The notes under the pieces were generated by a model, which had not been told where the DNA came from, searched no databases, and worked only from the letters and a program-made list of their open reading frames with translations. The position numbers and the translations under genes are program-made. This document shows, piece by piece, positions 5,524 to 50,023 of a stretch of DNA of 55,341 nt. The stretch is from the NCBI GenBank assembly GCA_027364845.1, contig DAHXOO010000015.1, positions 1 to 55,341 on the forward strand. The letters run 5' to 3'. Every line of letters starts with the position of its first letter. The first letter of the stretch is position 1. This DNA is from Pseudomonadota bacterium. Lineage in GTDB: Bacteria; Pseudomonadota; Gammaproteobacteria; Acidiferrobacterales; UBA6901.

Positions 5524-6795
5524 ATGGCAAAAAATTCGCCGAAAAACGCCTTTTACGCCCAGTCCGGCGGTGTAACCGCCGTCATCAACGCTTCGGCCTG
5601 CGGCCTGATCGAGACCGCCCGCAAGCACCGTAACAAAATCGCGAAGGTCTATGCGGGGCGCAACGGCATTATCGGCGCACTGACCGAAGACCTTATCGAT
5701 ACCAGCAAAGAGTCGGTCGCTGCCGTTCGGGCGCTGCGCCACACTCCGTCGGGTGCTTTTGGCTCCTGCCGCTACAAACTCAAGAGTCTGGAGCAAAACC
5801 GGCGAGAGTACGAACGTCTCATCGAGGTATTCAAAGCGCACAACATAGGCTTCTTCTTCTACAATGGGGGCGGTGACTCAGCGGACACCTGCCTCAAGAT
5901 TTCGCAGCTCTCCGAAACGATGGGCTACCCGATCGTAGCGGTGCACATCCCCAAGACAGTGGATAACGATCTTCCGATCACCGACAACTGTCCGGGCTTC
6001 GGCTCGGTCGCCAAATATATCGCCGTGTCCACACGCGAAGCGAGTTTCGACGTGGCCTCGATGGCCAAGACGTCGACCAAGGTATTCATTCTGGAAGTGA
6101 TGGGCCGGCACGCCGGCTGGATCGCGGCCGCGGGAGGACTTGCGTCCACCCGGGATACCGAGATCCCGATAGTGATCCTGTTCCCCGAGGTAACGTTCGA
6201 CCGGGACAAATTTCTCGCCAAGGTGGACGCAAACGTCAAACAGTTCGGCTATTGCACGGTGGTGGTATCGGAAGGTGTCAAGAGTGCTGACGGCAAGTTT
6301 CTCGCCGATCAGGGCCTGCGTGACGCTTTCGGCCATGCCCAGCTTGGTGGCGTAGCACCAGTGGTGGCCTCGATCATCAAAGAGGGGTTGGGGCTCAAGT
6401 ACCACTGGGGCGTAGCGGACTACTTGCAGCGCGCGGCACGGCACATCGCTTCAAAGAGCGACGTGGATCAGGCCTATGCCATGGGCAAGGCCGCGGTCGA
6501 ACTCGCCATCCGTGGCAATAACTCGGTGATGCCGACAATCCTACGCAAGTCCAACAAACCCTATAAGTGGACCGTCGGCGTGACGCCATTGAGCAAGGTC
6601 GCGAATGTCGAAAAGATGATGCCGGGCGATTACATCACGGCAGACGGATTTGGAATTACGGCCAAGTGCCGCACCTATCTCGAGCCACTAATAAAAGGCG
6701 AGGACTATCCTCCATACAAGGACGGCATGCCACAGTACGTGCGTCTCAAGAATGCGCCGGTGAAGAAGCGCCTTGAGGGCGAGTTCAGAATATGA
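5524..6795 (+). CDS. pfp: pyrophosphate-dependent 6-phosphofructokinase
   Basis: Reversibly phosphorylates fructose 6-phosphate using PPi instead of ATP. 423 residues. The donor-site motif reads GGGDSADT near residue 114 and the substrate motif is PKTVDNDLP near 142; the Lys in PKT, where ATP-PFKs have Gly, together with the changed GGDG motif indicates PPi use. MGRHAGW lies near residue 195. A good ribosome site (GGGGGAAAGGAAC) precedes the ATG. It is followed by a small gene and then by hppA. In Methylococcus a pfp gene is known to be cotranscribed with a H+-PPase gene, and the same arrangement here supports a PPi-recycling module. In an autotroph such enzymes may also act on sedoheptulose bisphosphate; that is inference. 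Confidence 0.95.
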   Translation: MAKNSPKNAFYAQSGGVTAVINASACGLIETARKHRNKIAKVYAGRNGIIGALTEDLIDTSKESVAAVRALRHTPSGAFGSCRYKLKSLEQNRREYERLIEVFKAHNIGFFFYNGGGDSADTCLKISQLSETMGYPIVAVHIPKTVDNDLPITDNCPGFGSVAKYIAVSTREASFDVASMAKTSTKVFILEVMGRHAGWIAAAGGLASTRDTEIPIVILFPEVTFDRDKFLAKVDANVKQFGYCTVVVSEGVKSADGKFLADQGLRDAFGHAQLGGVAPVVASIIKEGLGLKYHWGVADYLQRAARHIASKSDVDQAYAMGKAAVELAIRGNNSVMPTILRKSNKPYKWTVGVTPLSKVANVEKMMPGDYITADGFGITAKCRTYLEPLIKGEDYPPYKDGMPQYVRLKNAPVKKRLEGEFRI

Positions 6796-6900
6796 CCATG
6801 GATGTGGGGCGTACCGGTTCCGGGAAAGTGAACGCCCGGCCGGTGCTCATCATTTGCCACGGTCGCCATGCTGCGGGCAATTCCCACAAGCAAGATCCGC

Positions 6901-7122
6901 ATGACGCTTGACAGGGCAAGAGAGCTACTGCAAGTCCAGGCCGATTTCGGCGGGTTCTACAACGGCAATTCCGCCAAGCTGATCCTGTCGGAAGTCAGCC
7001 GCGAACACGGTCAAGAGGCCGTCGATCGCATGATCCGCGAACTGCATCTCGATCAGATCTTTGGCTTCGTGCCTGGCACGCACTTCAAGGGTGGGCTCGC
7101 GGTCAAGGACAAGAACTCCTGA
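6901..7122 (+). CDS. small protein of unknown function between pfp and hppA
   Basis: 73 residues if started at the ATG at 6901; the same frame extends to an ATG at 6868, but those 11 residues look non-coding. The protein is soluble, rich in charged residues and predicted helical, with QVQADFGGFYNGNSAKLIL followed by GQEAVDRMIRELHLDQIFG and a short FVPGTHFKGG tail. I do not recognise the family. It lies between two PPi enzymes on the same strand, which suggests a related role or at least coexpression. No domain, metal motif or signal sequence is seen. Confidence 0.6.
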   Translation: MTLDRARELLQVQADFGGFYNGNSAKLILSEVSREHGQEAVDRMIRELHLDQIFGFVPGTHFKGGLAVKDKNS

Positions 7123-7139
7123 TCGCACATCTAGTTACA

Positions 7140-7153
7140 TTGACCAGGATCAA
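7140..7153 (+). promoter_or_regulatory. FNR/DNR-type box upstream of hppA
   Basis: TTGAC-CAGG-ATCAA, nine of ten positions of the FNR consensus TTGAT-N4-ATCAA, within a longer dyad ACATTGA/TCAATGT. Its centre is about 115 bp before the hppA ATG. No convincing -10 hexamer was seen at class II spacing, so activation versus another role is open. Confidence 0.65.
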
Positions 7154-7261
7154 TGTGCCAGTGGCCTGTACATGGCATTTTCGCTGCTTTTGTTGCGCAG
7201 TGCCTTGCTGCTGTCCCCGATAAGCGGTTATTGAGATTCAATAAACATTTGGAGGAACAAC

Positions 7262-9280
7262 ATGTCGGAAAGTCTGATCTTCGCGTTTGCATGCGCGGCC
7301 GCGGCCCTGATCTATGGGGTCATTTCCATCAGGTGGATCCTGCAAAAATCTGCGGGCAACGATCGCATGCGGGAGATTGCATTGGCGATTCAGCAGGGCG
7401 CCTCCGCCTATCTCAAGCGCCAATACGCCACCATCGGGGTCGTCGGCATCATCCTGTTCGCCGTCATCTTTTTTGCACTGAACAAGCTGACCGCATACGG
7501 TTTCGCCATTGGCGCGGTGTGTTCCGGCTTGGCGGGAATCCTGGGAATGAATATCTCGGTAAGATCTAACGTGCGTACTGCCGAGGCCGCGAAGGGCGGA
7601 CTCAATGCAGCGCTGAGGGTCGCGTTCCGCGGCGGCGCCATCACCGGCATGCTGGTGGTAGGCCTGGGGCTGCTGGGCGTCACCGGTTACTACACAGTGC
7701 TGCGCTTCCTTACACCCGCGGGCGAGAGCGTCAACCTTTCGCCGCTGGTCGGACTGGCTTTCGGCGCATCATTGATTTCGATCTTCGCGCGCTTGGGCGG
7801 CGGCATTTTCACCAAAGGCGCGGATGTCGGCGCGGACCTGGTGGGCAAGGTCGAAGCCGGTATTCCGGAGGACGACCCGCGCAATCCGGCAGTCATCGCC
7901 GACAATGTCGGTGACAACGTAGGTGACTGCGCCGGCATGGCGGCAGATCTTTTCGAAACCTACGCCGTCACGATCGTTGCCAGCATGCTGCTCGGCAGTC
8001 TCGTGATCAAGGGGTTTAATAATGCGGTGCTGTTTCCGCTGGTTTTGGGCGGAGTATCTATCTTGGCATCCATCGTGGGCACGTACTTCGTCAATGCACG
8101 CGAAGGCGGGAAGATCATGAACGCACTGTACCGTGGTCTGATCGTGGCCGGCGCGCTCTCAGCAATCGCGTTTTATTTTGTGACCGAGAAACTAATGGCC
8201 GGCAATGGCGTCTATGACTGGCATTTGATCTACTACAGCGCGCTGATCGGACTGGCGGTGACCGCCGCGCTGGTGCTGATCACCGAATACTACACTGCCA
8301 CGGAGTTCAAGCCGGTACGCTACATCGCCGAGGCCTCCACCACCGGTCATGGCACCAACGTCATAGCCGGGCTTGCAGTGTCTATGAAGTCGACGGCTGC
8401 CCCGGTGCTGGTGATCTGCGCCGGAATCTGGGGTGCCTACGCGCTTGCCGGTCTCTACGGTATCGCCATTGCCGCCACCGCCATGCTGTCGATGACCGGC
8501 ATCATCGTGGCGCTTGATGCCTACGGTCCAATCACGGACAACGCCGGCGGCATCGCAGAGATGGCCAACCTGCCAGCCGAGATACGCGCTATCACTGACC
8601 CGTTGGACGCTGTTGGCAACACGACCAAGGCGGTGACCAAGGGCTACGCGATCGGATCAGCCGGCCTTGCTGCACTGGTGTTGTTTGCTGACTACACACA
8701 CGACCTCGCCGCCCACGGAAAGGTGTTGGCATTCGATCTTTCTGACCACCGCGTAATCATAGGGTTGTTCATCGGTGGGCTCGTACCATACCTGTTCGGC
8801 GCCATGGCCATGGAAGCAGTCGGCCGTGCGGCAGGTTCCGTGGTTGTCGAAGTACGCCGTCAGTTCAAGGAGATCAAGGGAATCATGGAGGGCACGGCCA
8901 AGCCAGATTATTCCAAGGCCGTCGACATGCTGACCCGAGCCGCGATCAAAGAGATGATCATCCCGTCGCTGCTGCCAATTCTGGTTCCAATCGTCGTAGG
9001 CTTGGTGCTCGGACCGCAGGCCCTGGGTGGAGTGCTGGTCGGATCGATTGTGACCGGACTGTTCGTCGCGATCTCCATGACCACCGGCGGAGGTGCCTGG
9101 GACAATGCCAAGAAGTACATTGAATCGGGCCAGTTCGGCGGCAAGGGCTCCGATGCCCACAAGGCTGCGGTTACCGGCGACACTGTTGGCGACCCCTACA
9201 AGGACACTGCCGGACCTGCGATTAACCCGCTGATCAAAATCATGAACATCGTCGCATTACTTATCGTAGCGATGCTGTAG
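7262..9280 (+). CDS. hppA: membrane-bound H+-translocating pyrophosphatase, K+-independent type
   Basis: Couples PPi hydrolysis to proton transport across the cytoplasmic membrane, or runs in reverse. 672 residues with about 16 membrane segments. The PPi/Mg site is clear near residue 185 ([14 protein letters not shown], then [11 protein letters not shown]) and a second acidic site lies near the C-terminus ([19 protein letters not shown]). The diagnostic residue lies in GNTTKA near residue 450: Lys here marks the K+-independent class, while Ala (GNTTAA) marks K+-dependent enzymes. The ribosome site GGAGG is 7 nt before the ATG. An FNR-type box lies upstream and a hairpin follows the stop. With pfp it forms a PPi energy module. 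Confidence 0.96.
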
Positions 9281-21905: not shown

Positions 21906-21919
21906 TTGACGCCGATCAA
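21906..21919 (+). promoter_or_regulatory. FNR/DNR-type box upstream of ubiT
   Basis: TTGAC-GCCG-ATCAA. A -10-like TATCAT lies at 21942-21947, so a start site near 21954 would put the box centre at -41.5, exactly class II geometry. The ubiT ATG is at 21987. Confidence 0.75.
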
Positions 21920-21986: not shown

Positions 21987-22490
21987 ATGCGTCTTCCAGT
22001 TCAACCCATCCTGTTCGGTCTGCGCCTGATGCCCGAAGCGATCCATGCGCAGGTCGTCGCACGAATTCTCACCCGGCTGTTGCGAGGCCAGGGGATCGAG
22101 CGGCGGTTGCCCGAGCTCACGGGGAAACGCGTCGACATCGAGATCTCCGACGTTCCCTGCACACTGAGACTGCGCGTGGCCGGGTCCCAGATCCATGCCG
22201 CTGCGCAACAGCACTCCGCCTGCGACGTACGCATACGGGGAACGCTTGCGGACTACTGGAAACTTGCCACCCGCGCCGAAGATCCGGACACGCTGTTCTT
22301 TGCTCGCCGCCTGTGCCTGGAAGGAGACACGGAAACCGCCCTCTACATCAAGAACCTGCTGGACGCGCTGGAATTCGACTGGCAGGCCCATGCGGTCTCT
22401 GTTCTGGGTCCACGCGCGGGACTGGCAATGAGCAGCTTGGTCCGCAATTTCACGGCCTCTGGCTCGGTAGCTACGCGCAAGCCCAGGTAA
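21987..22490 (+). CDS. ubiT: UbiT, SCP2-domain lipid carrier for O2-independent ubiquinone synthesis
   Basis: 167 residues with a sterol-carrier-protein-2 fold that binds polyprenyl intermediates; in E. coli UbiT with UbiU and UbiV replaces the O2-dependent hydroxylases. Visible: an N-terminal hydrophobic helix region PILFGLRLMPEAIHAQVVA, then RLPELTGKRVDIEISDV, the DVRIRGTLADYWKLATR segment and the characteristic EGDTETALYIKNLLDALEFDW. The ATG at 21987 follows AGGAA; the upstream extension of the frame looks non-coding and would cross the FNR box. It converges with the operon that holds ubiU and ubiV, stops facing each other 88 bp apart. Confidence 0.92.
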   Translation: MRLPVQPILFGLRLMPEAIHAQVVARILTRLLRGQGIERRLPELTGKRVDIEISDVPCTLRLRVAGSQIHAAAQQHSACDVRIRGTLADYWKLATRAEDPDTLFFARRLCLEGDTETALYIKNLLDALEFDWQAHAVSVLGPRAGLAMSSLVRNFTASGSVATRKPR

Positions 22491-22578: not shown

Positions 22579-24135
22579 TCAGGACTTTCTGCTTTTGGGT
22601 GACGGTATCCGGGCCGTCACCTTTCGCACCAGTTCGATATTCAGCTGCGACTGCGCCTGGAAGGTTCCGGCGTACGCAAGACCCTCCTGACGCAACTCGT
22701 AACAGTTCGATCCACTGATGTCCATCAGAACTGCCGGGATGCCGGCTTCGTCAAAAGCCACACGGCGCTTAAGATAGAAATTTCCGCAGCACATGCCTAT
22801 ATAGGCTGCCGTGCGTTCGTCACGCATGCGATCCAATGTCTGGCACAGGTGTTCGTAATTGTTGATCGAAATCACCTGCATCCCGCGCTCGCGCGCTAAC
22901 CGGTATGCCTCGCCGACTTCGCAGCGGCCGCACTCAGTGCACCCGTCACGGTTGCGCCATTTGCACCACAGCGGTTTGGCGCAATACGGAACCAACATGA
23001 CCGTGGCTTGCGACAGGATATCGTCCAGTCCCTGGTCGCGTCTCGGGCTATGCACCATGAGCATATTGGCTGCGGCGGTCTCCACTCCAAGGTCCGCTTG
23101 CTCGCGCTGGCGGTTAACCGCCAGCTGCAGTACGTAGCCGAGATCCTGGGCGGTCGCCCCGACGATCTCCCAGTCCAACCCCTGGAGAAATTGCTCCAGG
23201 CGGCTGTTGAGCTGCCCAGTATTCTGTGCTGTAAGAGTGCGCTCAAGCCGATGGAGAAGATCCGGCGGACGCATGTGGATGCTTCCTGAAATATGTACAT
23301 TTTTAATCACCGCGCCATTACTGCCCAAAGTAACTGCCGCATGCAAAACTCCACCGGCGGTGCAATGGAACGCGCGAAACGTGTCGATCGGCATCGACCA
23401 CTCCATGACATCCGGGCATACGGGATGATTGGTATCCCTGACTGGCGCCACACTCGACGAAGGCACAAGGCTAACGCCTAGCATCACGCCCAGCGCGTGT
23501 GCGATGCGGGACTCAATCTCTTCGAGCATCGGAATCTTCCCGAGCTGTTCACGCAGCGTAGTAAAACGCTCGCGCGCGCTGCGCATGCCTTTGGCGGAAA
23601 GCTTTTCGGTTGGCACCCGTAGCGCTTTGAGCATCGTCTCGACATCCACGTCGAGCAGCAGGCTCCCTTGGAACAACAGGCCTTGGCCGTCATCAGCGAG
23701 GAAACCGCAAGCGATCTTGCGGCCGCCGACTTCGATGTCATTGAAAGCTTTGAATACCGCCTCTATGCCCAGACCGCGCAGGGTCTTCACCAGCGTACTG
23801 CAAAACCGCTCCAGCGCTGCCTGCAGGGTTTCTCCAGCGTCGCGGCCACATGCCGACGGCATAGTCAGGCTCCAGCACAGCTGGCCATTGTCCAGATACA
23901 ACGCGCTACCGCCGGTCAGACGTCTATCGACTTCGATTCCGCGCTGGGCACAATATTCAAGCCGCACGACGCGTTCGACGTCCTCGTGCGCACCCATGAT
24001 CACGCTTGGCGTAAATCGGTAAAACCGCAGCTGCCCAACCGCTGCGGCGGCGGCATAGGCATAACGGTCCAAGCTGCGGTTGGCGCGACCGGACAGGATC
24101 CCACTGTCCTGCCATGTCCATTCCGCGGTGGTCAC
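22579..24135 (-). CDS. lipoate-protein ligase-like domain fused to DUF116
   Basis: 518 residues. Residues about 25-230 form an LplA-type ligase: TPSVIMGAHE, RRLTGGSALYLDNGQLCWSL and the lysine loop GGRKIACGF with GLLFQGSLLLDVD. A short accessory domain follows (about 255-345). The last 150 residues match DUF116, with a cysteine-rich motif (YCAKPLWC then CTECGRC, residues about 385-405), MCCGNFY and SNCYEL, likely metal or Fe-S ligands. The GTG start at 24135 overlaps the ubiV stop (GTGA), so translation is coupled. Known ligases attach lipoate or octanoate to carrier proteins; the substrate of this fusion and the role of DUF116 are unknown. Its place at the end of an FNR-box operon with ubiUV is the main clue. 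Confidence 0.87.
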   Translation of the reverse strand: MTTAEWTWQDSGILSGRANRSLDRYAYAAAAAVGQLRFYRFTPSVIMGAHEDVERVVRLEYCAQRGIEVDRRLTGGSALYLDNGQLCWSLTMPSACGRDAGETLQAALERFCSTLVKTLRGLGIEAVFKAFNDIEVGGRKIACGFLADDGQGLLFQGSLLLDVDVETMLKALRVPTEKLSAKGMRSARERFTTLREQLGKIPMLEEIESRIAHALGVMLGVSLVPSSSVAPVRDTNHPVCPDVMEWSMPIDTFRAFHCTAGGVLHAAVTLGSNGAVIKNVHISGSIHMRPPDLLHRLERTLTAQNTGQLNSRLEQFLQGLDWEIVGATAQDLGYVLQLAVNRQREQADLGVETAAANMLMVHSPRRDQGLDDILSQATVMLVPYCAKPLWCKWRNRDGCTECGRCEVGEAYRLARERGMQVISINNYEHLCQTLDRMRDERTAAYIGMCCGNFYLKRRVAFDEAGIPAVLMDISGSNCYELRQEGLAYAGTFQAQSQLNIELVRKVTARIPSPKSRKS

Positions 24136-25031
24136 GGGTCGAATTCTGTCAGCCAGTCCATTCCAGCCACACCGTGCCAGTAGCCATTGCACGGACCTGT
24201 CGACGCTGAGGCTTCGAGCGCACGCGCGGCCTCATCCGGATCGACCCGTCCGTCTATTGCGCGCCGAAACCAGTCGATTACGGTTTCCATGCCACGTGAC
24301 TGAGGCGAAAGGCGCAGCACGTCGACTTCAATCGCCCGCAGCGTCGGGAGTTCGCGCACGAGATTGGCTGTGGAGCCTGACTGCACTTGTATGCCGTTCA
24401 ATGCAAGAAACTGTAGCCCGTCGCGGGTTTCCAGTTCCATTCCATCGGGGTAGTCGGCGCAGCGGAACTGGCAGTCGTCCTTCGGCAGACCATGGGCACG
24501 TGCGGTGAAACAGCGCGCGGAAAAGGCAAGCGGCAAGCGACCGAACGCAAACACCTCAGTCTCCATGCCTTTCGGGCGCATGGCCTGCAGTTCCGTCACC
24601 GCCTCACGACCGAGCTCAAGTGGCGGCACCCAGCGACAGGCCCCCAGGTCAGAAAACAGCCGCAGCGTTTCACCGTTGTAAATATTGATGTGTGGACCGA
24701 CCACAAAACGCTCGCGGCCGCAAAGCATGTTTACCGCCGCCATATCGTTGGCCTCGACCCGGTAGCGGCCATTTTCCACAATATGCCGCATGCGGCTGAG
24801 CTCGGAAGCTGCCTCGACCAGTACCAGCGTCGATAGCACCACCTCCTTGCCGCAAGCGGCAAGACGGCCGGCGATATCCAGCCAATCTGTCGCATTCAAG
24901 GCACGGCGCTTGGCGCAAACCACCTCTCCTAGATATACGATGTCTACAGGCGCCACGGCAATACGCGCATAGAACTGCATCACGGTGTCCCGGTCCCAGA
25001 AGTACTGAATTGGCCCTAACGACAGTTTCAC
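24132..25031 (-). CDS. ubiV: UbiV, U32-family partner of UbiU
   Basis: 299 residues. With UbiU it forms a [4Fe-4S] complex that hydroxylates the ubiquinone ring without O2. The four expected cluster cysteines are visible: GEVVCAKRR near residue 38, then ARCFTARAHG, and DDCQFRC (C-x3-C). Other family features are the start KLSLGPIQYFW and FVVGPHINIYN. The start is the GTG at 25031; longer versions of the frame back to 25406 overlap ubiU and are low-complexity. The gap to ubiU is 59 bp and the stop overlaps the lipoate-ligase start. Confidence 0.94.
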   Translation of the reverse strand: MKLSLGPIQYFWDRDTVMQFYARIAVAPVDIVYLGEVVCAKRRALNATDWLDIAGRLAACGKEVVLSTLVLVEAASELSRMRHIVENGRYRVEANDMAAVNMLCGRERFVVGPHINIYNGETLRLFSDLGACRWVPPLELGREAVTELQAMRPKGMETEVFAFGRLPLAFSARCFTARAHGLPKDDCQFRCADYPDGMELETRDGLQFLALNGIQVQSGSTANLVRELPTLRAIEVDVLRLSPQSRGMETVIDWFRRAIDGRVDPDEAARALEASASTGPCNGYWHGVAGMDWLTEFDP

Positions 25032-25090
25032 AGAACCCCCGCGGTGTCGCCGACCGGTGCGGATAATGGCAGCGCTGTCACGGTTGGCGG

Positions 25091-26110
25091 CTACTGCCAC
25101 GCACGATCGATGGCGCCTAGCGTATGCTGTCGGCCCTCGGCGAGGCGGTCCAGTTCGGCGACCCATTCCGGGCGCGGCACATAGCCCGAAGGATCGCGCA
25201 TGCACGCATCCAGCGCCGCACGTAACACACGCGTGACCTGGGCTACGTAGGCCGGGCTGCGCTGACGCCCCTCGACCTTGACTGCTGAGATGCCGGATCG
25301 CAGCAGATCCGGCAGGATCCCGAGGACGTTCAGACTGGTGGGTTCCTCCAAGGCATAGGCAGGCGACACATCCGGCACCCCCCGGACTATGAACCGGCCT
25401 TTGCACAAAGTCGGGTAACCGGCGCTCTCGCCCGGGGCATAGACGTCGATGAGCACGCCGTTCAATCGCGACTGACGGCTACTTCCAGATTCCTCCCAGC
25501 GCACTGCCTTCGCCGGTGAGCAGACACCACAAGTATTGGGCGACTCGCCGGTAACATAGGACGACAGGGCACAGCGTCCCTCGACCATAACGCACAGGCT
25601 TCCGAACCCAAAGACTTCGACCTCCACCGGCGTATTGCTGATCACATATCGCACTTGGTTGAGCGACAGTACGCGTGGCAGAACGACGCGCTGCACGCCA
25701 AACTGGCGCGCATAGAAACTGATGGCTTCTGGGTTGGTAGCTGACCCCTGAACCGACAAGTGAAGCCGCAGCGCCGGGTGCCGCTCGCGGCAATAATGCA
25801 TCAATCCCGGATCAGCGAGGATTACCGCGTCTACACCTAGATCCGCTGCAGCGTCCGCCGCACGCGTCCAGTCGCTCCACTGGCCGACGCGTGCGTAGGT
25901 ATTTAGCGCAAGAAACACGCGTGCGCCACGTTCATGCGCATACTGAATGCCGCGGCGCATCTCGCTGTCGTCAAAATTCAGCCCGGGGAAGTTACGCGCA
26001 TTGGTGGCATTGCGGAACCCGAGATACACGGCATCGGCACCGTGATCGACCGCTACCTTCAGGGCCGGCAGGCTGCCGGCGGGACAGACAAGCTCGATCC
26101 TGCGGTTCAA
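25091..26110 (-). CDS. ubiU: UbiU, U32-family ubiquinone hydroxylation protein
   Basis: 339 residues. U32 peptidase-like [4Fe-4S] protein of the O2-independent ubiquinone pathway. ELVCPAGSLPALKVAVDHGADAVYLG is the family N-terminus (here shown across residues 6-31), TNARNFPGLNF follows, and the cluster cysteines fall in SLCVMVEGRC, NTCGVC and TLCKGRF. I choose the TTG at 26110: it overlaps the yhcC stop (TTGA) and has GGAGG at proper spacing, and it gives the usual N-terminus; a GTG at 26134 is the alternative. It is the third gene of the minus-strand operon. Confidence 0.94.
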   Translation of the reverse strand: MNRRIELVCPAGSLPALKVAVDHGADAVYLGFRNATNARNFPGLNFDDSEMRRGIQYAHERGARVFLALNTYARVGQWSDWTRAADAAADLGVDAVILADPGLMHYCRERHPALRLHLSVQGSATNPEAISFYARQFGVQRVVLPRVLSLNQVRYVISNTPVEVEVFGFGSLCVMVEGRCALSSYVTGESPNTCGVCSPAKAVRWEESGSSRQSRLNGVLIDVYAPGESAGYPTLCKGRFIVRGVPDVSPAYALEEPTSLNVLGILPDLLRSGISAVKVEGRQRSPAYVAQVTRVLRAALDACMRDPSGYVPRPEWVAELDRLAEGRQHTLGAIDRAWQ

Positions 26111-27063
26111 TTCACCAAACCTCCGGCGACGCACTCGAGCGCAGAGTGGCGGAGCGTGCTACCTTGCGAGGAACCACGGCGCCTTAATGTCGCCTCGATG
26201 CCGTTCAACACCCGCCATTTGTGACCGCACCAGGAAGGCGCAAGCAGGATACCCGGTGCGGCCGTGCCTGTGACACGGTGAAATATCACGTCCACCGGCG
26301 TCATCTCGATTAGGTCGGCGGCAAGCTCTATGTATTCGTCCTCGGCAAGCGGACGGTATTCACCGCGGCGCCAGTCATTGGCAAGCTGTGTGCCCTTCAC
26401 CACATGCAGCGGATGCAGTTTCAACCCATCCACACCCTGATCCAGGACGCGCGCAAGCGTCGTTCTGTTGTGGGCAGCGTTCTCGCCCGGCAGACCCAGA
26501 ATCAGATGGGTGCAAACCGGCATACCGCGCGAACGTGCTGCATGGACAGCAGCACGGTACTCGGAATAACCATGGCCACGATTCACGCGCCGCAGAGTTG
26601 CGTCGAAACTCGACTGCAACCCCAGCTCCAGCCACACCTCGAAACCGGCGTCGCGGTAACTTTGCAGCAGGTCAAGCACCTCATCTGACACACAGTCCGG
26701 TCGCGTCCCGACAGACATCCCTATCACTCCAGGCTGCGCCAGCGCTTCGTCATAAAGCGCCCGCAACCGGCTGATGCCGGCATAAGTATTGGTATATGCC
26801 TGGAAATAGGCGAGGACATGCCGTGCCCCGGTGCGGCGCGCGACAACGGCACGGCCGGCCGCGATCTGCCGAGCGATCGATACCGGCTGGCGCCCATTCG
26901 GACTGAAGGATACGTTGTTGCAGAAGGTGCACCCGCCACGACCGATACTGTCGTCGCGGTTGGGACAGGTAAAGCCCGCGTCGAGTGCAATCTTGTGCAC
27001 GCGCTCGCCATAGCGGCGCATCATGACCTGCCCGAAGGTTGTGATGTAATCCGACAAGGCCAT
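26107..27063 (-). CDS. yhcC: YhcC-like radical SAM protein (TIGR01212 family)
   Basis: 318 residues. Radical SAM motif CPNRDDSIGRGGCTFCNN (the C-x12-C-x2-C pattern of this family) near residue 33, then YFQAYTNTYAG near 100, GTRPDCVSDEVLDLL, EVWLELGLQSSFDATLRRVNRGH and HLILGLPGE. The biochemical function of YhcC is not established. It precedes ubiU with an overlapping stop/start and follows another radical SAM gene by 11 bp. Being locked into the same operon as ubiUV suggests an anaerobic role; that is inference. Confidence 0.88.
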   Translation of the reverse strand: MALSDYITTFGQVMMRRYGERVHKIALDAGFTCPNRDDSIGRGGCTFCNNVSFSPNGRQPVSIARQIAAGRAVVARRTGARHVLAYFQAYTNTYAGISRLRALYDEALAQPGVIGMSVGTRPDCVSDEVLDLLQSYRDAGFEVWLELGLQSSFDATLRRVNRGHGYSEYRAAVHAARSRGMPVCTHLILGLPGENAAHNRTTLARVLDQGVDGLKLHPLHVVKGTQLANDWRRGEYRPLAEDEYIELAADLIEMTPVDVIFHRVTGTAAPGILLAPSWCGHKWRVLNGIEATLRRRGSSQGSTLRHSALECVAGGLVN

Positions 27064-27074
27064 ACCGTCTGGAA

Positions 27075-27662
27075 CTATCCAACCTCGTCGAGAACGCGGC
27101 GACGGAACTTGACCCCGATGCCGGCCGCAATACTCGCGCAGGCATCGATGTCGACGCCCGGCAGCCCATCAATCGCGGTAAGCGTGACATCCGGCACGAA
27201 ATCATAGGCGCGCCGCGCGAAATCGAGCAGGGAATGGTAGGCCCCGGCGAGTTTTGGGCGGCAATAGCGGTTGTACAAGATCTCGTTTTGGGCGTTGAGC
27301 GATATCGACAGTGCGTCGATATTGTCTTCCAGGTCCGGGGTGACGTCTCTGCCATAGACCATGTTGGCAAGACCGTCGGTATTGATGCGGACGCGCCCGC
27401 CGCGTGCTCGCAGGCGCGATGCGATTTCCAGCGACGTGTAAAGACGCAAGGTTGGTTCCCCAAGGCCGCAAAACACGATTTCGCGATAACTTCGAGGGTC
27501 CCCTACCGCATCCAGTATCTCGTCCGCGGTTGGCTCGCGCCGCAGGCGCAGGGCATTGCCCTGGACGTCCCAGGCACCATTGAACTTGGGACAAAAACTG
27601 CACCGCAAGGTGCAGCGGTTGGTGATGTTGAGGTAACAGTTGCCGTGGAGGATATACGACAC
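27075..27662 (-). CDS. small radical SAM protein (TatD-associated type)
   Basis: About 195 residues from a GTG at 27662. It has the short layout of the TatD-associated radical SAM family: NCYLNITNRCTLRCSFCPKF (C-x3-C-x2-C) near residue 10, VFCGLGEPTLRLYTSLEIA and VRINTDGLANMVYGRDVTP. Substrate unknown. The open frame continues to 27833, but a FNR box (27742-27755) and a -10-like TAGATT (27713-27718, minus) imply transcription starts near 27707, so a start at 27662, with GAGG upstream, fits best; an ATG at 27707 would be leaderless. First gene of the operon with yhcC, ubiU, ubiV and the ligase fusion. Confidence 0.82.
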   Translation of the reverse strand: MSYILHGNCYLNITNRCTLRCSFCPKFNGAWDVQGNALRLRREPTADEILDAVGDPRSYREIVFCGLGEPTLRLYTSLEIASRLRARGGRVRINTDGLANMVYGRDVTPDLEDNIDALSISLNAQNEILYNRYCRPKLAGAYHSLLDFARRAYDFVPDVTLTAIDGLPGVDIDACASIAAGIGVKFRRRVLDEVG

Positions 27663-27741
27663 CACGCCGCCCGGAACCTCGAGACAAGATGAACGCTGGA
27701 TGCTCATACCGAAATCTAAAGGCAAACGGTAGTCGCCAGCC

Positions 27742-27755
27742 TTGACATACGTCAA
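27742..27755 (-). promoter_or_regulatory. FNR/DNR-type box upstream of the radical SAM-ubiUV operon
   Basis: TTGAC-ATAC-GTCAA, a perfect palindrome. On the minus strand a TAGATT hexamer at 27718-27713 and a start near 27707 would put the box centre at -41.5. Confidence 0.75.
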
Positions 27756-28231: not shown

Positions 28232-28561
28232 TTAACCCGTACTCCATGCGCGCGGCCGTCGCATACCAGCAACTTTGCATGCCTGCTGCATGTATCCGTA
28301 GGGGAACAATCGGTAGAGTCGGTCTCGGCCTGACCCGCTGCCATATTTCTCATTGAGGAACTTGATCACAAAGCGCGCGTCGGCCGCAATATGGTGCTGC
28401 GTGAAGTACTCGCGCATGAAATTGAGCACCTCCCAGTGCTCCGATCCGAGGTTGATGTTTTCCCTTTTGGCTAGCTCCTCAGCGACGACGTCGTTCCAAT
28501 CGTCGGGATCAACGAGAAAGCCATCGTTGTCTGTAACAAGCTTAGTCGTCTGCACCTGCAT
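28232..28561 (-). CDS. DsrC/TusE-family sulfur-carrier-like protein, CysA-less
   Basis: 109 residues with the DsrC fold signature: DNDGFLVDPDDWN, HWEVLNFMREYF, RLYRLFPYGYMQQACKVAGM. In canonical DsrC two cysteines on the C-terminal arm (CysB in ACK and the penultimate CysA eleven residues later) carry the trisulfide. Here CysB is present, but the CysA position is Trp, in a tail ending RPRAWSTG. It therefore cannot make the canonical trisulfide and may act as a regulator or a single-Cys carrier (inference). It is divergent from nsrR and has AGGAG before its ATG. Confidence 0.88.
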   Translation of the reverse strand: MQVQTTKLVTDNDGFLVDPDDWNDVVAEELAKRENINLGSEHWEVLNFMREYFTQHHIAADARFVIKFLNEKYGSGSGRDRLYRLFPYGYMQQACKVAGMRRPRAWSTG

Positions 28562-40848: not shown

Positions 40849-41076
40849 CTGCGTCGCCTCACGTTACCATTGCATAGCATAGCACCGCATGACCTACCGG
40901 TCATGGATGCTGGCCATCGGATGATCACCACCGGCCCGGAGTTTGACAAGCCCAGGACACGCGCTTCAATATGAGGGTGCAACGTCGCCGCCAGCATGGA
41001 GGCAGGGGTCGATACCTCCTCCTCGGGCAGCCGCGGCGATCCACCCGGCTATCACCGGTATGGCGGACGGCTTCCC

Positions 41077-42006
41077 ATGTCGAAAGCACATCCCATCGTT
41101 GCGGTTACAGGATCTGCCGGCTCAGGCACGACCACGATCAGGCACGCCTTCAGCGACATATTCCGCCGCCAGGGGATCCGTGCCGCATTTGTCGAGGGCG
41201 ACAGCTTTCAGCGCTACGACCGCGAAACCATGGCGCAGGTGATCGCCCAAGCGCAGGTGGCGGGACTGGCCCTGAGCCATTTCGGGCCGGACGTCAATCT
41301 GTTCGAACGGCTTGAGGCGCTGTTTGCGGAATACGCCCGCAATGGCGGCGGACAGACCAGGCTTTGTATCACCGAGGACAATTGCCAGAAGCTCAGCCAG
41401 GAACCCGGAACCTTTACGCCCTGGGAACCGCTGCCCGCTGGGACAGACCTGCTTTTCTACGAAGGTCTGCACGGCGGCGTCGTGGCGCGCACCTGGACGC
41501 GCCGGCAGATGAGCCCGTCACATAATCCTACCGTGATCGAGCGCCGTTCGCGCGACAGCGGCAATGGCGTGGATGTCGCCCAGCACGTCGACCTGCTCCT
41601 CGGCGTGGTTCCAGTCGTCAATCTCGAGTGGATCCAGAAAATACACCGCGATACCCGCACCAGGGGCTACTCCGCGGAGGCGGTAACCGATACGATACTG
41701 CGGCGCATGCGCGATTACGTGAATTTCATCGTGCCACAGTTCTCCGTCACTGACATCAATTTCCAGCGCGTCCCGGTAGTGGACACCTCCAATCCGTTTG
41801 TCGCGCGCGATGTGCCGATCGACAGCGAAAGCGTCGTGGTCATTCGCTTTCGCGAGCCTTACAGCTTCAACTTCCCGGAATTGCTGCGTAAGATTCATGG
41901 TTCGTTCATGTCGCGTCCCAATACCCTCGTGATACCCGGAGGCTATATCGGGCATGCACTCGAGGTCATCTGCGCACCGCTCATATACCAGTTGTGCGAA
42001 AAATGA
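41077..42006 (+). CDS. prk: phosphoribulokinase
   Basis: Phosphorylates ribulose 5-phosphate to ribulose 1,5-bisphosphate in the Calvin-Benson-Bassham cycle. 309 residues, proteobacterial class I type. P-loop VTGSAGSGTTTIRHAF at the N-terminus, FVEGDSFQRYDRETM, then HFGPDVNLFERLEALF, FYEGLHGGV near residue 130 and IQKIHRDTRTRGYS near 190. The ATG at 41077 is chosen because the family starts just before the P-loop; the frame opens earlier at 40996. RuBisCO is not in this window. This gene is the firmest sign of autotrophy. Confidence 0.95.
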   Translation: MSKAHPIVAVTGSAGSGTTTIRHAFSDIFRRQGIRAAFVEGDSFQRYDRETMAQVIAQAQVAGLALSHFGPDVNLFERLEALFAEYARNGGGQTRLCITEDNCQKLSQEPGTFTPWEPLPAGTDLLFYEGLHGGVVARTWTRRQMSPSHNPTVIERRSRDSGNGVDVAQHVDLLLGVVPVVNLEWIQKIHRDTRTRGYSAEAVTDTILRRMRDYVNFIVPQFSVTDINFQRVPVVDTSNPFVARDVPIDSESVVVIRFREPYSFNFPELLRKIHGSFMSRPNTLVIPGGYIGHALEVICAPLIYQLCEK

Positions 42007-45538: not shown

Positions 45539-45552
45539 TTGACCCAGATCAA
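45539..45552 (-). promoter_or_regulatory. FNR/DNR-type box upstream of dsrAB
   Basis: TTGAC-CCAG-ATCAA. A TACCGT hexamer on the minus strand at 45516-45511 would give a start near 45504, again a -41.5 spacing, although that -10 is only a 3 of 6 match. Confidence 0.65.
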
Positions 45553-48666: not shown

Positions 48667-48680
48667 TTGACCTATGTCAA
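48667..48680 (+). promoter_or_regulatory. FNR/DNR-type box upstream of nnrS
   Basis: TTGAC-CTAT-GTCAA, perfect palindrome. A GATAAG hexamer at 48703-48708 would give a start near 48715, box centre at -41.5; the ATG is at 48737. Confidence 0.75.
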
Positions 48681-50009: not shown

Positions 50010-50023
50010 TTGACCTGAATCAA
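50010..50023 (+). promoter_or_regulatory. FNR/DNR-type box upstream of the hemerythrin gene
   Basis: TTGAC-CTGA-ATCAA, 17 bp after the nnrS stop and 63 bp before the next ATG. No good -10 was found at the expected spacing. Confidence 0.6.

Follow-up and report, generated by a model that had tools for sequence, protein, structure and literature searches.

A lipoate–protein ligase fused to DUF116 and encoded behind ubiUV and an FNR-type box: a possible link to lipoate assembly in sulfur-oxidizing bacteria

Contig DAHXOO010000015.1 of a gammaproteobacterium of the lineage UBA6901 (Acidiferrobacterales; assembly GCA_027364845.1) was analyzed over 55,341 nucleotides, the stretch referred to here as the window. 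Its minus strand carries five tightly packed genes for a TatD-associated radical SAM protein, an MnmL/YtqA-type radical SAM protein, UbiU, UbiV, and a fusion of a lipoate–protein ligase (LplA) to the uncharacterized domain DUF116. This order, proposed in a preliminary description of the DNA, is borne out by profile matches and by reading of the sequence. Families were assigned by profile matches against curated equivalog or subfamily cut-offs (NCBIfam) or the Pfam gathering score, and gene spacing was read from the sequence. The features of the operon are as follows.

27742–27755, minus strand: FNR/Anr-type box TTGACATACGTCAA (minus-strand reading TTGACGTATGTCAA) upstream of the operon, fitting TTGAN6TCAA
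27713–27718, minus strand: putative -10-like element TAGATT, read from the sequence; its distance from the box is about that of class II
27075–27665, minus strand: TatD-associated radical SAM protein (TIGR04038, 238 bits versus a cut-off of 130)
26107–27063, minus strand: mnmL, MnmL/YtqA-type radical SAM protein of the YhcC family (TIGR01212, 358 bits versus an equivalog cut-off of 180)
25091–26110, minus strand: ubiU, with a TTG start that overlaps the mnmL stop (NF047963, 537 bits versus 440)
24132–25031, minus strand: ubiV (NF047965, 404 bits versus 275)
22579–24135, minus strand: LplA-DUF116 fusion of 518 amino acids, with a GTG start that overlaps the ubiV stop (PF21948 and PF01976)
22621–23043, minus strand: DUF116 domain of the fusion (PF01976, 31.9 bits versus a gathering cut-off of 25)

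The radical SAM gene and mnmL are separated by 11 bp and ubiU and ubiV by 59 bp, the mnmL stop and ubiU start overlap as TTGA, and the ubiV stop and the fusion start overlap as GTGA. The fusion likely begins at this GTG (24135) rather than at 24192, the start of the longest open reading frame.

The first part of the fusion has the fold and motifs of a complete LplA. It matches the LplA-B_cat family PF21948 with 121 bits (cut-off 27), and a weak LplB match, below its cut-off, lies at residues 287–358. AlphaFold models the fusion with a mean pLDDT (predicted local distance difference test) of 92.8, and in Foldseek its first part matches full-length LplA structures over 350–370 columns, one of them with lipoyl-AMP (E 3.5e-21). 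The motifs RRx[ST]GGG and NDxxxxGRK are kept in the fusions and a lysine stands at the catalytic position in 71 of 75; the window's own copy reads RRLTGGS. From its predicted fold and motifs, the fusion is very probably an active lipoate–protein ligase. It is 33–36% identical to the sLpls encoded in lip clusters, and is placed as their sister in a tree whose only outgroup is the sLpls. The sLpl is a ligase specific for LbpA, which modifies LbpA and not the lipoyl domain of Escherichia coli (PMC6067878). Because the window's fusion is encoded in the ubi operon and not in an shdr-lbpA-lip cluster, it is classed as sLpl-related and not as an sLpl.

In the DUF116 part, eight cysteines (385, 391, 399, 402, 405, 449, 450, and 478 of the 518-residue protein) are essentially invariant across 75 fusions. 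Judged from these cysteines alone, the domain most likely binds one or two iron-sulfur (Fe-S) clusters. When modeled by itself it adopts a Rossmann-like fold (pLDDT 91.7). The precorrin methylmutase CbiC (the best Foldseek match, E 7e-4, template-modeling score 0.27) and a designed Rossmann protein (the best VIA-align match, Z 8.1, many tied rows) share a common alpha/beta arrangement with it and were not taken as relatives; the HdrA-type chain 8rvy_A (Z 6.4) ranks level with unrelated rows and was left aside. Control matches place the DUF116 proteins of methanogens in the same Pfam domain. In the open-access literature, no paper was found that mentions DUF116 together with lipoate and none that names PF01976, and papers elsewhere could do so; the open-access literature naming UbiU/UbiV makes no mention of a lipoate–protein ligase. 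The fusion is thus new to the searchable open literature, and the UbiTUV/FNR part of the locus is known biology.

A profile of the fusion, scanned over 84,980 species genomes, yielded 80 loci. Recurrence of these genes next to ubiUV had been set beforehand as one test of the preliminary description, and the genes do recur: in 52 of the 80 loci, from gamma- and betaproteobacteria, ubiV is no more than 5 kb from the fusion. Within the same distance, these 52 loci carry mnmL (34), ubiT (31), nrdD (24), and the radical SAM gene (20). Within the genus, relatives retain the full order tatDrSAM-mnmL-ubiU-ubiV-fusion, in most cases with ubiT and hemN beyond it. The named hosts are largely sulfur oxidizers (Ectothiorhodospira, Thioalkalivibrio, Acidithiobacillus, Sulfuricella, Gallionellaceae, and Acidiferrobacter), and many others are metagenome-assembled genomes (MAGs). 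In a phylum-wide sample a DUF116-type domain was found in 3 of 398 genomes, so the fusion is rare. Acidiferrobacter-type genomes (L053, L054, L057, L058) encode a second LplA-DUF116 paralogue outside the ubiUV region; none of the neighbors tested for lies beside it. The ubiV-fusion pair of a Candidatus Micrarchaeota MAG (L122) is close to Acidithiobacillus-type pairs and most likely reflects contamination of the bin.

A different context is found in nine of the 80 loci, in Thioalkalivibrio MAGs and two alphaproteobacterial MAGs, where the fusion adjoins and diverges from a lipS1-sLpl-lipT-lipS2 cluster. In one of the genomes with lipoate context (G283, locus L162), the cluster is complete and reads shdrC1-B1-A-hyp-..-B2-lbpA-lbpA-lipS1-[sLpl::DUF116]-lipT-lipS2; here the sLpl, the ligase of the sulfur-oxidation cluster, is itself fused to DUF116. 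The sHdr assignments rest on Fer4, CCG, and FAD proteins that fit the sHdr subunit types, and LbpA is of the GcvH type. The ligase half of this protein is 49–54% identical to four gammaproteobacterial lip-cluster sLpls and 42–43% to two alphaproteobacterial ones, and its DUF116 half is 52–58% identical to the DUF116 of the fusions. In the tree rooted on sLpls its branch leaves at the base, between the sLpls and the remaining fusions, a position that fits an ancestral stage and a second fusion alike. UbiV over the cut-off is absent from G283, G668 (L106), and G669 (L119, a trace match only), all of which have the fusion in or beside lipoate genes. In L119, LipS1, LipS2, and the ligase were assigned as best NCBIfam matches below the curated cut-offs, and LipT is a flavoprotein of the geranylgeranyl-reductase family. 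The window's genus has an shdr-lbpA-lip cluster with a plain sLpl; in the window genome, sLpl-lipT-lipS2 (L146) is found at the edge of a contig, and the genome encodes a GcvH/LbpA-like protein in addition to GcvH.

Co-occurrence was counted in a class sample of 229 evenly drawn genomes, with statistics that ignore shared descent. PF01976 scores the domains of the fusions weakly; a second count, made with a domain profile (A3), confirmed seven genomes, from seven genera and six families, and dropped a weak match in G156. UbiV is above its cut-off in 63 of the 229 genomes. LipS1 was called at 184 bits or more (family cut-off 230, next match 60 bits) and is present in 16 of the 229; G000 was counted as positive on the grounds that the end of the contig truncates its lip cluster. 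All seven genomes with the fusion have UbiV (p 9e-5), and six have the lip pathway (p 4e-7 with G000, p 2e-5 leaving it out of the LipS1 count). The fusion is present in 6 of 8 genomes with both LipS1 and UbiV, in 0 of 9 with LipS1 and no UbiV, and in 1 of about 55 with UbiV and no LipS1, so that among UbiV-positive genomes it tracks LipS1 (6/8 versus 1/55, p 3e-6). These counts suggest that the fusion goes with lipoate assembly for sulfur oxidation and that, among such genomes, it is placed with UbiUV where ubiquinone synthesis independent of O2 is possible.

The FNR-type box before the operon and a -10 at about class II distance, both claimed in the preliminary description, were located in the sequence, as was ubiT, which converges on the operon behind a box of its own.

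21987–22490, plus strand: ubiT (SCP2 domain; NF047962, 129 bits versus 47; start read from the sequence)
21906–21919, plus strand: FNR/Anr-type box TTGACGCCGATCAA upstream of ubiT, fitting TTGAN6TCAA
19936–21324, minus strand: hemN, oxygen-independent coproporphyrinogen III oxidase (604 bits), beyond ubiT and a conserved neighbor in relatives

The exact core TTGAN6TCAA occurs six times in the window. The four other copies are at 7140–7153, 45539–45552, 48667–48680, and 50010–50023, and the copy at 7140–7153 stands ~110 bp before a membrane pyrophosphatase gene (7262–9280). Among the 47 related loci with enough upstream sequence, the exact core precedes the operon in 19, with ~0.03 expected per locus. 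It is found in every scanned locus of the window's order, 39–86 bp ahead of the first gene, and before ubiT in most of these. In the same scan it was not seen in Ectothiorhodospira or in most betaproteobacterial loci, and FNR control is therefore predicted for the window's order only. Since Fnr is known to control ubiUV and ubiT in E. coli (PMC10470549), the promoter part of the locus is ordinary. Together with the position of ubiV beside the fusion in most loci, the frequency of the box core argues that the arrangement of the operon is not due to chance.

Taken together, these observations make it reasonably probable that the fusion is an sLpl-derived lipoate–protein ligase with a probable Fe-S domain, which was moved into an anaerobic operon and thereby keeps lipoate assembly, probably on LbpA, going when O2 is absent. 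UbiU and UbiV, with UbiT, would make ubiquinone without O2, as elsewhere. On the ligase part of the fusion, ATP and lipoate or octanoate would give acyl-AMP, and the acyl group would be transferred to a lysine of a lipoyl acceptor, for which the LbpA protein or proteins of the sHdr sulfur-oxidation pathway are the likeliest candidates; if octanoate is attached, LipS1/LipS2 would then insert sulfur. The DUF116 cluster may pass Fe-S or electrons to the sulfur insertion, or may permit the ligase to work only while its clusters are intact, that is, where O2 is absent. The location behind ubiUV would ensure that the ligase is made when sulfur oxidation must use anaerobic electron acceptors via ubiquinone. 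A more speculative version, which we regard as doubtful, makes DUF116 a donor of Fe-S (or sulfur) that rebuilds, at the acceptor, the auxiliary cluster consumed by lipoyl synthase; ligation and Fe-S resupply would then be united in one protein for lipoate assembly without O2 in sulfur oxidizers.

Several observations weigh against a role in lipoate assembly on LbpA. A plain sLpl is already present in the lip cluster of the window genome, so the fusion is not needed there as the only LbpA ligase, and the neighborhoods of the ubi-type fusions, taken to 5 kb, contain neither a lipoyl acceptor nor a lip gene. Neither ubiV nor lip context was found in the available DNA of 16 of the 80 loci (L073, L096, and L117 being set aside as Thioalkalivibrio-type), and one genome of the class sample (G177) has the fusion and UbiV with no LipS1 match. 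The G283 gene may have arisen by a second, separate joining of DUF116 to an sLpl rather than being an ancestor. A search of the DUF116 sequence against the PDB gave no solved relative, only chance ribosomal matches.

The preliminary description had offered two roles for the fusion, namely that it works with the hydroxylation system or that it lipoylates something needed anaerobically. The first would have the fusion, or its DUF116 domain, serve UbiU-UbiV directly by supplying electrons, clusters, or a lipoyl-type carrier for O2-independent hydroxylation. The frequent adjacency to ubiV, mostly with overlapping stop and start, the presence of UbiV in all seven fusion genomes of the class sample, and the need of anaerobic ubiquinone synthesis for Fe-S assembly (PMC10470549) are consistent with such a role. 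However, the fusion is nearly confined to the LipS1-positive part of the UbiV-positive class genomes, and E. coli makes ubiquinone anaerobically with UbiTUV (PMC10470549) and has no DUF116 in a control search. Moreover, G283, G668, and G669 keep the fusion in or beside the LipS1/LipS2/LipT cluster without UbiV over the cut-off, and in G283 DUF116 is carried by the sLpl itself. A direct role in ubiquinone hydroxylation is thus less likely, indeed decidedly improbable in our estimate, and the second option fits better.

The fusion could instead be a general anaerobic ligase for 2-oxoacid dehydrogenases or GcvH rather than LbpA, which the full LplA architecture and the canonical GcvH and LipA/LipB of the window genome would allow. 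We consider this unlikely, as its relatives encoded in lip clusters belong to the sLpls, which are reported to be specific for LbpA and to show no activity toward the lipoyl domain of E. coli (PMC6067878), and the distribution of the fusion tracks LipS1/S2, whereas lipoyl enzymes are general. It could also be argued that the five genes are merely co-regulated by FNR and that the ligase is present by chance or linkage with no function specific to anoxia, since the recurrent neighbors nrdD/nrdG, hemN, ubiD, and mnmL are largely genes of anaerobic life without a common pathway. Yet the ubiV-fusion pair, with its overlapping stop and start, recurs in many gamma- and betaproteobacterial lineages, more than drift would keep, and this explanation seems very unlikely. 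The neighbors do bear on a further proposal, that the five genes form one undescribed functional module. A recurring module with an FNR-type box and an undescribed ligase fusion stands, but one module of five is too strong, as mnmL and the radical SAM gene are inconstant and nrdD is about as frequent. The theme shared by the operon genes, and by hemN, is anaerobic life and not one pathway.

The closest non-fused relatives in the searched genomes are probably the sLpl(AB) proteins of shdr-lbpA-lip clusters (PMC6067878, PMC10332631), which likewise combine an LplA catalytic with an LplB-type accessory domain and belong to the established LipS1/S2/LipT lipoate pathway (PMC10332631). In contrast to them, the window protein has a C-terminal DUF116 with eight cysteines, is encoded in a ubiUV operon preceded by an FNR-type box, and shares its genome with a plain sLpl. 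The UbiT-UbiU-UbiV pathway with Fnr control (PMC6747719, PMC10470549) has orthologous UbiU, UbiV, and UbiT, and the predicted boxes precede ubiUV and ubiT, as they do in E. coli, but the window's operon adds two radical SAM genes and the ligase fusion. An independent link between anaerobic ubiquinone synthesis and sHdr/LbpA sulfur oxidation comes from the available part of a report on Hyphomicrobium denitrificans (PMC12423496), in which ubiXDTUV are co-regulated with sHdr sulfur oxidation through sHdrR/SoxR; there the link is regulatory, and that part mentions no ligase fusion.

The preliminary description held that the three non-Ubi proteins had no settled role, which is true of the fusion but not of the MnmL/TIGR01212 product, for which the NCBIfam family name predicts tRNA modification. 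For the first radical SAM gene, a GTG near 27665 is a more likely start than an ATG at 27707, because distant homologues begin there (at residue ~13–16 of the longer reading) and the ATG would coincide with the predicted transcript start. TatD-associated radical SAM genes diverge from nrdD-nrdG near the ubi operon in two loci (L156, 12859–16674; L161, 2337–6050), which suggests that this family is connected with anaerobic ribonucleotide reduction. A DsrC/TusE-family gene (28232–28561, minus strand) immediately upstream of the operon is kept in place within the genus (83–91% identity); its product ends in ...RAWSTG, apparently without the usual cysteine at the C-terminus. Genes for a pyrophosphate-dependent phosphofructokinase, a membrane pyrophosphatase, and phosphoribulokinase (5524–9280 and 40996–42006) are consistent with an autotroph.

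The operon ties together two recently found pathways, one for O2-independent ubiquinone synthesis and the other, the LipS1/S2 route, for lipoate in sulfur oxidizers, and gives DUF116 a first testable context. It leads to the prediction that the lipoate assembly of sulfur oxidation may have an anaerobic form of its own.

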